From: Desulfobacterales bacterium
Lineage (GTDB): Bacteria; Desulfobacterota; Desulfobacteria; Desulfobacterales; JAFDDL01
DNA length: 64,000 nt
Reading direction: 5' to 3'
Assembly: GCA_034003325.1 (NCBI GenBank)
Contig: JAVEYW010000009.1
Coordinates: forward strand, 1-64,000
Each line of letters starts with the position of its first letter. The first letter of the stretch is position 1. Under the pieces are notes generated by a model. That model had not been told where the DNA came from. It saw only the letters and a program-made list of their open reading frames with translations, and made no database searches. Position numbers and translations under genes: made by a program. This document shows, piece by piece, positions 32,524 to 39,122 of this stretch.

Positions 32524-33807
32524 TTAGGCGGATTGCAGGCTTCGCCGGCCGGTTGGCTTCGTCTCCCGGCCGGACATCCAGGCAAACGCGCCTTTTCTCG
32601 ACCGCCCTTTTGGCTCATAGGCGGGTTTGTTCCTTTGCGGTTGATACCCTCGATCGGATCGGGGGCCGCTTTTTTGCGAAGTTGCCGGCGCTGCATGATA
32701 ATCGAAATCCGCCAGGGTGCGCCGTTCGATAGGCGTGCCAACGGTCTGATTGATGGCGCGGACCATATCCTTGTCCTCTCCGGTAATCAGGGTGAAGGCC
32801 TCACCGTTGCGCGTGGCTCGACCGGTCCGCCCGATGCGGTGAATATAAGCTTCGGGGGTGGAAGGGATATCGTAGTTGATGACGTGAGACACCTGCGTGA
32901 CGTCAATGCCCCTGGCGGCGATATCGGTGGCGACCAGAATCTGAAAGGTTCCATCGCGAAAGCCATCGAGAGCGGCCTGGCGGCGTCCTTGGGAAAGATT
33001 GCCCTGCAAAGACGTCGAGCGGTATCCGGCGACAGCCAGCTTTTGGCCCAAGGTTTTGGCGCGGTGTTTGGTCCGGGTAAAAACAAGCACCGAATCAGCG
33101 GTGGTATTTCCCAACAGCTTTAACAGCAGCGCCGTTTTCAAATGCTCGGCGACTGGATAGAGCGCATGACGAACCGTATCGGCAGGGGCTGTGGTTCCCA
33201 CCTGGACCGTGGTCGGGTTTTGCAGAATATCCCCTGCCAAGCGGCGAATTTCCGTGGGCATTGTCGCCGAGAAAAGCATCGTCTGGCGCTGTTTGGGAAG
33301 ATGCGTCAAAATGCGCCGAATATCCGGGAGAAACCCCATATCGAACAACTGGTCCGCTTCATCAATCACCAGCACTTCCACTTGGGAAAGATCGACGGTA
33401 CGGCGATTGATATGATCCAGAAGCCGGCCGGGACAGGCCACAACAATATCGGCTCGCTTTAGTTTTTGAATCTGCGGATTAATTCCAACGCCACCGTAAA
33501 CCGTGGCGCTTTTCAGGCGGGTCTTGCTCCCCAGGGTTTCGATCGCCTGATGAATCTGTTCGGCCAACTCTCGGGTAGGGGCCATGATCAGCGCGCGAAC
33601 GCAATTTTTTCCCCCCAACAACCGGTTGAGTATCGGCAGGACAAAGGCAGCCGTTTTACCGGTGCCGGTTTGGGCCAGTCCCATCACATCGTGATTCCTG
33701 AGGACTTCCGGAATTGCCCGAACCTGAATAGGGGTCGGGGTTACATATCCTGCCGCTACGACGCCTGCCGCAACATGGGGATGAAAATTAAAAGACTCGA
33801 AATTCAA
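32524..33807 (-). CDS. rhlE: DEAD-box RNA helicase, RhlE type
   Basis: This protein of about 427 residues has all helicase motifs: the Q motif (PTPIQ), AQTGTGKT, PTRELAEQ, DEAD as VLVIDEADQ, SAT, and HRIGRTGR in motif VI. The tail after residue 370 is basic and low complexity (RGYQPQRNKPAYEPKGRSRK), as in RhlE, and there is no DbpA domain. I choose TTG at 33807, with AGAAGG nine bases upstream; the open frame extends to 34113 but that part overlaps a promoter and a terminator and is not protein-like. RhlE helps ribosome assembly and RNA decay. Confidence 0.9.
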   Translation of the reverse strand: MNFESFNFHPHVAAGVVAAGYVTPTPIQVRAIPEVLRNHDVMGLAQTGTGKTAAFVLPILNRLLGGKNCVRALIMAPTRELAEQIHQAIETLGSKTRLKSATVYGGVGINPQIQKLKRADIVVACPGRLLDHINRRTVDLSQVEVLVIDEADQLFDMGFLPDIRRILTHLPKQRQTMLFSATMPTEIRRLAGDILQNPTTVQVGTTAPADTVRHALYPVAEHLKTALLLKLLGNTTADSVLVFTRTKHRAKTLGQKLAVAGYRSTSLQGNLSQGRRQAALDGFRDGTFQILVATDIAARGIDVTQVSHVINYDIPSTPEAYIHRIGRTGRATRNGEAFTLITGEDKDMVRAINQTVGTPIERRTLADFDYHAAPATSQKSGPRSDRGYQPQRNKPAYEPKGRSRKGAFAWMSGRETKPTGRRSLQSA

Positions 33808-33958: not shown

Positions 33959-35599
33959 CTATTGGGCAAGCGCCACCGCAACGGATTGCCGGCCAATCCG
34001 ATAAGCGCCGGCCCTGGACAACACCTTTTCCACGAATTTTTCCGGCACATCGACAAAGGTATGTTTGTTTTGAATGCTGATTTTTCCGATGGAACCGCCC
34101 GGTATATCGGCATAGTGGGTCAGGGCGCCCACGATGTGGTTCACCCGCGTGCCGTCTGATTTACCCGAACTGAGCGTCAGGCGCACCATTCCTTTTTCGT
34201 GCGAAAGGGCGGTCGGGGCAGGGCTGTTTTTCCTGTTTTCCCGTTTCTCGGCACGCCGGGGTATCGCCGGTTGCCATTCCTGAATCTCGCTCACCGGCGC
34301 GATGGGGCGTTTCTTGTCGTCTTCGCGGGCCAGTTTCAGCGCAATCGCGGCAATCTGAATGGGGTCATGCCCCTCTTCTATCAGGGTGGCGACGATTTCC
34401 CGCTCGCGGGTGCACCGCCCGCGCCGCAGCCAAACCCTTACCTGTTCCAGCAACCGGGCATCCCGCTGGGCCTGAATGTCTTCAACAGTCGGCAGGCTAC
34501 ACGGCTTCAATTTTTGCTTTGAATACCCCTCAATTCTACCTAAACGCCACCGTTCCTGAGGGGTCAGCAACGAAATGGCAATGCCGGGTTTTCCGGCCCG
34601 CGCGGTGCGGCCCACACGATGTACATAGATTTCCGGATCACGGGGTAAATCATAATTTAACACATGGGAAATATCGTCGATATCGAGTCCCCGTGCCGCC
34701 ACATCCGTCGCCACCAGCACTTTTATCTGGTTGTTCCGAAACCGCTGCAGCACCCTTTCCCGGGCATCCTGGCTCAAATCGCCATTTAAAGCCTCGGCCG
34801 GAACGCCCCGAACCGAAAGCGCATTGACCAGTTCCCCCGTGCCAAGGCGGGTCTGAACGAAGATAAGCGCGCTGGAGATGGGTTCGGCTTCGATCAGCCG
34901 GGTCAGGGCCGCGAGCCGTTCCGTTTCATTGACCAGATAATAGCGTTGCTCAACCGATGCGACCGTCAGTTTTTTTTGCCCGATGGTAACCGACTGGGGA
35001 TTGTGCATGTAGCGTTCGGCCAATTGTCGAATTTTAGCCGGCAAGGTCGCGGAAAAAAGAGCTGTTTGGCGATCGGGAGGCGTTTTTTCAAGAATGGCTT
35101 CAATATCCCCGATAAAGCCCATGCTGAGCATTTCATCGGCTTCATCCAAAACAACGCTCGACACGCGGCTGATATTCAGTGCCCCCTTCTGTATCAAATC
35201 CAGCAGGCGCCCCGGCGTCCCCACGACGATATCCACCCCTTTTTCGAGTTGCCGAATCTGAGGAACATAGGGTTGACCGCCGTACACAGCCAGCACGCGA
35301 ACGCCGATCAAACGACCGTATTGATGCATGGCGCCGGCCACCTGCAGGGCCAGTTCCCTGGTAGGGGCCACTATGAGGCTTTGCACATGATCCCTCTTGG
35401 TTTCCAGGGTTTGTAGTATGGGGAGCGAAAAGGCGGCTGTTTTTCCGGTGCCGGTTTGGGCCTGACCGATGACATCCCGGCCGGTCAGCATGGCCGGAAT
35501 AATGGCGGCTTGAATGGGCGTCGGTGCGGTATAGCCTAATTCAGTTACGGTTTGCACCAGCATGGGGTGCAGATCTAGAAGGGAAAATTCGTTGGTCAT
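33959..35599 (-). CDS. deaD: DEAD-box RNA helicase with DbpA RNA-binding domain (DeaD/CsdA type)
   Basis: This 546-residue protein has the complete helicase core (PTPIQ, AQTGTGKT, PTRELALQ, VLDEADEM, SAT, HRVGRTAR) in residues 1-365. A C-terminal DbpA RNA-binding domain follows at about 470-540 (MVRLTLSSGKSDG to FVDVPEKFVEKVL), as in DeaD/CsdA. It unwinds RNA during ribosome assembly and cold adaptation. The leader of about 250 bases contains a strong intrinsic terminator and further hairpins. GGAGC lies upstream of the ATG. Confidence 0.93.
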   Translation of the reverse strand: MTNEFSLLDLHPMLVQTVTELGYTAPTPIQAAIIPAMLTGRDVIGQAQTGTGKTAAFSLPILQTLETKRDHVQSLIVAPTRELALQVAGAMHQYGRLIGVRVLAVYGGQPYVPQIRQLEKGVDIVVGTPGRLLDLIQKGALNISRVSSVVLDEADEMLSMGFIGDIEAILEKTPPDRQTALFSATLPAKIRQLAERYMHNPQSVTIGQKKLTVASVEQRYYLVNETERLAALTRLIEAEPISSALIFVQTRLGTGELVNALSVRGVPAEALNGDLSQDARERVLQRFRNNQIKVLVATDVAARGLDIDDISHVLNYDLPRDPEIYVHRVGRTARAGKPGIAISLLTPQERWRLGRIEGYSKQKLKPCSLPTVEDIQAQRDARLLEQVRVWLRRGRCTREREIVATLIEEGHDPIQIAAIALKLAREDDKKRPIAPVSEIQEWQPAIPRRAEKRENRKNSPAPTALSHEKGMVRLTLSSGKSDGTRVNHIVGALTHYADIPGGSIGKISIQNKHTFVDVPEKFVEKVLSRAGAYRIGRQSVAVALAQ

Positions 35600-35744
35600 G
35601 GTTGAAGCTCCTACTTGCGTTTTGACGAATCCACGGTGCCTGCATTCCCCTTGCGGGGTTTGCCCCTGATGTCGATCAACAGTCGACTCGTCCCGGTAGG
35701 GGTGTCACCCCCTAGACACAAAGTAAGAGCCTTGCTGTTGCAAC

Positions 35745-35776
35745 AAAAAAAAGCCCGGCCAATTGATCTGCCGGGC
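35745..35776 (-). terminator. intrinsic terminator in the deaD leader (probable attenuator)
   Basis: GCCCGGC and GCCGGGC stem arms with loop AGATCAATTG and a run of eight T on the minus strand. It lies 146-177 bases before the deaD start. No minus-strand gene lies upstream that would need it. Confidence 0.8.
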
Positions 35777-35821
35777 AACCACTTTTGATTATTCAAAACA
35801 GGTTGTGTGAAAAAATAAAGA

Positions 35822-35855
35822 TCCGATATCGGATTCCGTGGCTCTTTTATAATAT
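35822..35855 (-). promoter_or_regulatory. possible deaD promoter with palindrome
   Basis: Minus-strand -10-like boxes TATAAA (35847-35852) and TATTAT (35850-35855) have only weak -35 matches. The perfect 14-bp palindrome ATCCGATATCGGAT (35822-35835) lies just downstream, at the expected start region. It could be an operator. Confidence 0.4.
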
Positions 35856-35875: not shown

Positions 35876-36017
35876 CTAATCCGGCAAAGCCGGATGCTGG
35901 AATGCTGGAATGCTGGAATGCTGGAATGCTGGAATGCTGGGATGCTGAGATGCATAAAAGCCATCTTTCACCTTCGGCGAATATACACGCAAAAGCGTGC
36001 ATGTTCCTGGTAAAGGG
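35876..36017 (+). repeat. R1 dispersed repeat, copy c (expanded)
   Basis: This copy has the two hairpins and seven 8-bp units (CTGGAATG x5, then CTGGGATG and CTGAGATG), against three in copies a, d and e. It is followed directly by an R2 unit. Confidence 0.92.
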
Positions 36018-38763: not shown

Positions 38764-38918
38764 GGGTAGGATTGCCGGGATCCTCGAGAGGTGGTGATGG
38801 CCTGAAAGAAAGATACGCCCGACTGGCACGGCTTTTCAAGGATCGTATAAGGTATGATATTGACGCATAATTTGCTTTGGAATATGCTTTTAATAATAAT
38901 AAATCTCGTGCGTTCAAG

Positions 38919-39029
38919 CCTAATCCGGCAAAGCCGGATGCTGGAATGCTGGGATGCTGGGATGCATAAAAGCCATCTTTCACCGTCGGCGAATATACAC
39001 GCAAAAGCGTGCATGTTTCTGGTGAAGGG
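38919..39029 (+). repeat. R1 dispersed repeat, copy d
   Basis: Full copy with three 8-bp units and both hairpins, ending TGGTGAAGGG, followed head to tail by R2. Confidence 0.9.
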
Positions 39030-39122
39030 CATAAGCCGGCAAAGCCGGATGTTGGGTGGTCGGGCTGTTTGGTGGCCAACGACCTTCTTCAATTATGCAC
39101 GTTTTTGCGTTTATCTTTCTGA
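39030..39122 (+). repeat. R2 dispersed repeat next to R1 copy d
   Basis: ATAAGCCGGCAAAGCCGGAT, then AACGACCTTCTTCAATTATG and CGTTTTTGCGTTTATC. It reaches within 33 bases of the regulator start at 39155, so it may form part of its promoter region. Confidence 0.75.

Follow-up and report, generated by a model that had tools for sequence, protein, structure and literature searches.

The window, by which we mean the whole 64,000-nucleotide stretch of a Desulfobacterales contig that was analysed here, carries on its minus strand the gene order deaD, rhlE and a csp-like gene, the last of which (32226-32029) lies after rhlE on the same strand as deaD and encodes a CSD protein (PF00313). Upstream of deaD, the neighboring gene (SDR, from 36217) runs on the plus strand. 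Preceding deaD on the minus strand, at about 35600-35845, is a leader that folds more strongly than its shuffles (z -3.86). The RNA-binding domain of the encoded helicase is closer to that of CsdA (5b88, E 9e-6) than to that of DbpA (E 9e-4). The features of the locus, including the strands of the helices discussed below, are as follows:

33959..35599, minus strand: deaD, a DEAD-box helicase with PF00270, PF00271, PF25399 (DeaD dimerization) and PF03880 (DbpA-type RNA-binding)
start near 33807, minus strand: rhlE, a gene call that is our own reading
35846..35854, minus strand: probable deaD -10 region, TATTAT/TATAAA, a prediction, approximate as to hexamer and start site
35821..35834, minus strand: 5' stem-loop ATCCGATATCGGAT, a 14-bp palindrome near the transcript start, from sequence and folding
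35793..35799, minus strand: 5' box GUUUUGA, the 5' strand of P0, pairing at 7/7 positions with 35625-35619 in the window
35753..35776, minus strand: terminator stem-loop GCCCGGC-N10-GCCGGGC (arms 35776-35770 and 35759-35753), covarying helix 1
35745..35752, minus strand: terminator U tract of eight U, read from the sequence, 146 nt ahead of the deaD ATG at 35599
35735..35740, minus strand: upstream CAACAG, predicted to pair with the core as the early hairpin PU, from the MFE of the emerging RNA
35721..35731, minus strand: 5' strand of P1, GGCUCUUACUU (anti-SD); helix 2, with 79.5% of cells paired and double changes at 6/10 pairs
35695..35719, minus strand: hairpin insertion particular to the window leader, containing GGGGUGACACCCC, with GGGGTGTCACCCC at 35699-35712; an insertion against the consensus in two alignments
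35685..35692, minus strand: 5' strand of P2, GACGAGUC; helix 4, with double changes at 7/8 pairs and P=0.0002 in its own shuffle test
35677..35682, minus strand: core CUGUUG, the most constant element, with a partner upstream (PU) or downstream (P3)
35666..35671, minus strand: 3' strand of P3, the downstream copy CAUCAG (consensus CAACAG), with 68.6% of cells paired
35647..35658, minus strand: P4 hairpin CCCC-GCAA-GGGG, the conserved small hairpin CCCCTTGCGGGG; helix 6, its modelled pairs being formed in 97.2% of cells
35619..35631, minus strand: switch strand GAUUCGUCAAAAC, whose first part is the 3' strand of P2 and whose UCAAAAC part is the 3' strand of P0
35607..35616, minus strand: 3' strand of P1, AAGUAGGAGC, which contains the SD AGGAG (35608-35612) and bears on the SD openness test

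An earlier note on this DNA had described the GCCCGGC/GCCGGGC terminator with its eight T, 146 bases ahead of deaD and with no minus-strand gene upstream, all of which we find in the sequence; because the nearest upstream gene, the SDR gene, is on the plus strand, the terminator closes no visible upstream minus-strand gene. The further hairpins that it listed are likewise both present, GGGGTGTCACCCC being the window-leader insertion and CCCCTTGCGGGG the conserved small hairpin, and the 14-bp palindrome that it placed near the expected start is the 5' stem-loop ATCCGATATCGGAT downstream of the predicted -10. What we add is the part of the leader past the terminator, with its SD lock and a competing early hairpin, and the occurrence of the leader in several phyla. 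Separately, 8-base tandem arrays of ATGCTGGA (6.8 copies) and GGATGCTG (3.8 copies) occur at 35894-35947 and 38936-38965 of the window; they sit in a longer repeated element (...ACACGCAAAAGCGTGCATGTT...) that starts just upstream of the deaD promoter and again near 38900-39060.

A search for DeaD across genome contigs returned 80 loci, and many of the upstream stretches share a common layout consisting of a TATACT-type -10, the U-rich box GUUUUGA, the terminator, GUUGCAACAG, GGCUCUUACUU, GGGAYGGGUC and the core CUGUUG, with a small hairpin after the core and then GGAYYYRUCAAAAC and the SD. Two covariance models were built, R1 from ten leaders and R2 from thirty, and R1 found the deaD leader of the window at 126 bits, along with leaders in many of the remaining loci. 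Compared with Rfam 15 at gathering thresholds, the window gave only tRNA, and ten loci gave tRNA, T-box and cobalamin matches, all of them outside the leader; below the thresholds, the leader gave only matches far under the cut-offs, such as L20_leader, which scored 19.1 bits where 58.7 are required. We regard the deaD leader as a candidate new RNA family.

Among Anaerolineae, an R1 match at E<=1e-5 lies within 160 nt upstream of deaD in 26 of 30 listed loci, or in 24 of 28 once two loci used to build R1 are set aside, and the other loci comprise three weaker matches and one contig that starts inside the gene. In the class of a Chloroflexota carrier, this DeaD (E<=1e-165) occurs in 46 of 298 genomes. 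It is rare in Desulfobacterota (6 of 395 genomes), where R2 matches directly upstream of the gene in 6/6, the matches of L193 and L194 being split into two pieces because of an insertion. An earlier blind whole-genome scan of Desulfobacterota had given some match at E<=0.01 in 28 of 297 genomes, and five of the six DeaD-bearing genomes are among those 28, matched at deaD. When 20 carrier genomes were scanned, 19 matched, the best match in each was the deaD leader, and further weak matches were found only in the genomes of L019 and L023. The leader was also found in a Rhodothermales MAG (L047, 48 bits) and, by both the R1 and R2 scans, in L009; L144 gave a match in the 30-bit range, again ahead of a DeaD, and L143 one of 32.8 bits that is not at deaD. 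Weak matches (20-28 bits) that lie away from deaD resemble plain terminators, judging from their short aligned length, and the related helicases of cyanobacteria and others gave no convincing leader match (best cyanobacterial match L079, E 0.2). Whole-genome scanning of 350 Chloroflexota with R1 found the leader at E<=1e-4 in only five (5/350), which we think is because only 8 candidates per genome were scored; locating DeaD and then scanning its flank gave a far better yield. Desulfobacterota and Chloroflexota both have the leader ahead of this DeaD-type helicase, as does at least one Rhodothermales MAG. There is good support for the structure of the leader and for its tie to deaD.

A tree of 73 DeaD proteins, made by a quick method with SH-aLRT support only and with labels that we set ourselves and that may be wrong for single MAGs, has 14 Desulfobacterota rows lying within Chloroflexota, and its well-supported branches require three changes or more. 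This implies that deaD was probably transferred several times between phyla and that the leader went along with it. The leader stays with a single gene and travels with it. Its restriction to one helicase subfamily, with which it moves, suggests that the helicase is its constant partner; if the encoded protein is the partner, one would expect just such an element, complete in itself and functional in new hosts.

We examined the promoter in 39 leaders (L165, L043, L173, L013, L017 and L047 were left out). A promoter-like -10 is predicted upstream of the terminator in 38 of them, at a median distance of 62 nt to the stem, the sole exception being L042; the earlier note had named a promoter mapped downstream of the terminator as what would refute its reading, and the predicted sites lie on the other side. 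The -10 has the form TATA[ACG]T in 29 of the 38 leaders and is preceded by an extended TGN in 31, and in the window leader TATTAT was picked, 72 nt ahead of the terminator stem. Over the 42 nt past the -10, the fold is better than the shuffle mean in 32/38 leaders, and in 16/38 no more than 5% of shuffles equal it.

Terminator sites prove little on their own, because a simple scan of the region found no more of them than chance (29 sites versus 27.0 +- 4.6 in shuffles); the deaD-leader terminator is absent from that scan's list because its loop exceeds 8 nt. It rises above chance because it is conserved: all 37 leaders examined have four or more T in a row after the stem, and the stem has 93.8% of cells paired with double, compensatory changes at 7/7 pairs. 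A GC-rich hairpin with a U tract therefore lies between the predicted promoter and deaD, which is the layout of an attenuator. By eye, no conserved upstream partner for the 5' arm of the terminator, that is, no antiterminator, was seen in the leaders. In two Desulfobacterota leaders, L013 (3860-3997) and L017 (2978-3112), the terminator is missing and the downstream SD-lock domain is kept, so the first of the two gates proposed below is dispensable there and the two gates are separable. A promoter-like stretch apparently occupies the place of the lost terminator. In the window leader, at 35804-35776, a local hairpin (CAACC..GGUUG, GUUUUGA/UCAAAA) is a further option for the GUUUUGA box; it is in contact with the terminator stem and was not seen by eye in most other leaders. 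A further pairing around the terminator, GUUGC..GCAAC, is good in many leaders; judged by eye, it does not hold for the L022/L161 group, and we discarded it.

Beyond the terminator, the modelled structure comprises P1 (with the SD), P2, P3 and P4. Over 45 model-aligned leaders (44 distinct) and including the terminator, 80.1% of cells are paired and double changes occur at 26/35 pairs. The covariation score of the 44 distinct leaders is 0.257; shuffles score 0.142 +- 0.006, and slid structures never exceed 0.07. Because a model-aligned set leans to its model, we recounted covariation on an unfitted MAFFT alignment of ten leaders, which scored 0.253 versus 0.158 +- 0.016 in shuffles and at most 0.11 when slid.

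We then asked how accessible the SD is within this structure, using 37 of the 45 leaders, the same set as for the T-runs: L146 was left out for want of a recognisable SD, and L165, L016, L043, L173, L035, L013 and L017 as duplicate, cut-off or terminator-less. Compared with shuffles of the terminator-to-SD stretch that keep dinucleotides, mean SD openness is 0.18 versus 0.40 and is lower in 32/37 leaders (Wilcoxon p=1e-7); in the window it is 0.00 versus 0.41, and in 5/37 leaders the SD is hidden no better than in shuffles. The SD is paired within one conserved, covarying fold. In a Chloroflexota group (L015, L031, L035 and L043), UCAUCAAAAC or AUCAAAA can, by eye, pair with UUUUGAUGA around the start codon, and in this group the start codon may be locked instead of the SD.

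The earlier note had also held that the two helicases of the locus share one RNA-based control. For deaD, RNA-based control is supported, with the terminator placed inside the predicted transcript of the leader. Sharing with rhlE is not supported, as within the window R1 (E<=1) and R2 (E<=0.1) match only the deaD leader, and the same device does not appear ahead of rhlE. A terminator-like hairpin of 10 pairs, present on both strands, lies just before rhlE at 33862-33839; it starts 97 nt after the deaD stop and so could as easily be the end of the deaD transcript. Between the deaD stop and that hairpin, at 33935-33907, is a promoter-like site.

The core is nearly invariant over 41 leaders (C 39, T 40, G 36, T 35, T 36, G 33). 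Complement to it, in runs of at least five pairs, is found upstream in 29/41 leaders, downstream in 21/41 and on both sides in 16/41; for comparison, a letter-shuffled core finds complement upstream in 13.3 and on both sides in 7.0. The upstream complement predicts a hairpin, PU, that crosses P1 and therefore excludes it in a nested fold. We folded 37 leaders (41 after leaving out L165, L043, L173 and L035, minus L009, L024, L166 and L027, which have no recognised core), taking as the emerging RNA the part that begins at the terminator and stops 12 nt beyond the core and shuffling the stretch before the core. PU is in the MFE of the emerging RNA in 31/37 leaders versus 6.5 +- 1.9 (max 13) in shuffles; like the SD openness test, this comparison counts related sequences as independent and ignores pseudoknots and real kinetics. 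In the full-length fold, the SD region is paired with the 5' strand of P1 in 31/37 leaders. Both properties, PU early and the SD locked late, are combined in 27/37, and the core is still paired upstream in the full-length fold in 2/37. From folding prefixes of growing length, the leader RNA is thus predicted to switch between two exclusive folds.

Neither PU nor P3 covaries in excess of shuffles (P=0.66 and P=0.39, respectively), because the core hardly varies. P3 and two further partners of the core were tried as covarying helices, and none covaried. PU is accordingly a predicted hairpin, for which thermodynamics and conserved sequence argue. The column shuffle tests used rows free of gaps in the tested columns, which left 32 to 36 leaders. 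By such a test, P0 has 178/224 cells paired over 32 leaders (79.5%) compared with 168.6 in shuffles (P=0.010), and slid registers reach at most 53%. P0 is weak or absent in about one third of leaders, and a comparison of duplex energies in which every 5' box was set against every 3' end gave no signal for it (P=0.37), probably because unrelated pairings swamp the signal. L042 shows a co-change, with UUAC in the 5' box and GUAU at the 3' side in place of the UUCC and GGAU of most leaders. P0 and P2 overlap on the switch strand and are mutually exclusive, and P0 is compatible with PU. For the window, the fold with the terminator (T), P1 and P2 has an energy of -90.5 kcal/mol, PU+T -81.5 and P0+T -77.5, such that the locked fold is favored by 9-13 kcal/mol over forced PU or P0 folds.

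What these computations show is a set of helices, a lock on the SD, an early hairpin, a predicted order of folds and a tie to deaD, and the cell probably uses this RNA folding to set the amount of helicase. The reading that we favor, though tentatively, is that of a two-gate leader in which an attenuator is combined with a bistable SD lock that DeaD closes autogenously. At the first gate, the intrinsic terminator would act about 55-65 nt past the start, and only some transcripts would reach deaD. Read-through RNA would then face the second gate, made of two mutually exclusive folds. In the early one, the core CUGUUG would pair with the upstream CAACAG, holding the anti-SD and the 5' strand of P2 in a loop and leaving the SD free (ON), and P0 could form alongside it and occupy the switch strand. 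In the late and more stable one, P1 and P2 would form and the SD would be buried (OFF). Seen as two folds, CUGUUG and the upstream CAACAG would be paired in early RNAs, and the SD and GCUCUUACUU in long ones. DeaD would drive the system by speeding the refolding from early to late and would thereby close its own synthesis; whenever DeaD runs short, is tied up or is slowed by cold, the early fold would persist and more DeaD would be made. Termination in cells, the ON/OFF direction of the switch and the role of DeaD as its driver are what we infer in this scheme. A more specific version, which we think rather unlikely to hold in full, makes helicase activity itself the input of the switch: the leader would be caught cotranscriptionally in its translatable fold, the helicase would resolve it to the closed one, and the core might mimic 23S hairpin 92. 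If this is true, the cell reads its own RNA-remodelling capacity through the deaD mRNA.

The strongest alternative, unlikely in our view, retains the same leader and replaces DeaD as the driver with temperature or a cold-shock-domain protein, acting by antitermination and melting. The csp-like gene two genes downstream on the same strand would be a natural partner for such a mechanism, and a U-rich 5' box stands ahead of the terminator in most leaders, whereas a leader that belongs to one helicase subfamily and travels between phyla with it argues against it. It is improbable to a greater degree that the leader is a static structured 5' UTR, in which the terminator and the SD stem cut expression by a fixed amount with no switching. 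The locked fold is far more stable than its rivals, and this energy gap could be compatible with a static lock; such a lock needs neither PU, present in 31/37 leaders as against 6.5 in shuffles, nor P0, whose partner strand is kept.

A riboswitch or a protein-binding leader for some other ligand, be it a small molecule or a ribosomal protein, is very improbable. A terminator combined with an SD gate is widespread among leaders of that kind, and the core is nearly constant, yet the Rfam matches of the leader are all sub-threshold, association with metabolic genes is absent and the strong matches precede deaD. Still more doubtful is the proposal that the short transcript ending at the terminator (about 90-100 nt) acts in trans as a small RNA and that deaD is expressed from leftover readthrough: promoter, 5' hairpin and terminator would make a complete small transcript, but constraint is strong past the terminator too, in P1, P2 and the core, and L013 and L017 have the lock and no terminator. 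We give hardly any credence to the idea that the terminator ends an unseen upstream minus-strand transcript unconnected to deaD, since, although the terminator alone says no more than this, a -10 stands at a regular distance upstream of it in 38/39 leaders and the layout recurs before deaD in many genomes.

The two-gate leader closed by DeaD remains the reading that we prefer, and its parts can be set against known systems. In the cold-sensing leaders of the E. coli cspA type, for which Rfam has a cspA family, two folds govern access to the SD. The deaD leader is like them in its two folds, in SD access and in preceding a cold-related gene, and unlike them in that it has no Rfam match, has a covarying terminator and belongs to another gene with another layout. 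The conserved structured leader before hflX, an RNA helicase gene of Bacillales, is the uORFC-6-1 motif (PMC8632094); as far as the consulted part of that source describes it, it is an upstream-ORF motif, whereas the structure of the deaD leader surrounds the terminator and the SD. Within the open-access literature, subscription papers lying mostly outside this scope, we recognised no description of the deaD leader, and the parts consulted of PMC2864571, PMC5874925 and PMC5378194 contain nothing on such a leader.

The possible likeness of the core to ribosomal RNA is a lead of a different kind. YxiN recognises the loop of 23S hairpin 92, the target of the DbpA/YxiN RNA-binding domains (PMC3695512 and PMC7973409, consulted in part). 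The core region GGGUCGGCUGUU resembles GGGU..GGCUGUUCGCC or GGGU..GGCUGUUC of the hairpin as given in those parts, and DeaD has a DbpA-type domain. The leader match is partial, with GGCTGTT exact in 12/41 leaders, and the only 23S match of this organism is on a contig that ends before the hairpin 92 region. Because the DeaD domain is nearer to CsdA than to DbpA, we treat mimicry of hairpin 92 by the leader core only as a lead.

In the portions of PMC3485376 consulted, the pathways that set the amounts of DEAD-box helicases in bacteria are said to be not well characterized, and the DEAD-box helicase CrhR of Synechocystis is reported to help control its own expression, together with temperature, with effects on transcript and protein half-life. 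Self-control by a DEAD-box helicase is what the deaD leader would share with CrhR, whose abstract describes no leader switch. An attenuator and a bistable SD lock that move between phyla with their helicase would form a compact test system, in which it can be asked whether a helicase measures its own activity through its mRNA. The nearest formal parallel is with transcription attenuators and autogenous leaders of the L20 type, where a 5' leader carries an intrinsic terminator and an RNA-binding product controls its own mRNA (PMC6097659, consulted in part). The deaD leader is alike in its 5' intrinsic terminator and in an RNA-binding product that may control itself, and it differs from them in having a second gate over the SD, in encoding a helicase and in scoring below the Rfam cut-off.
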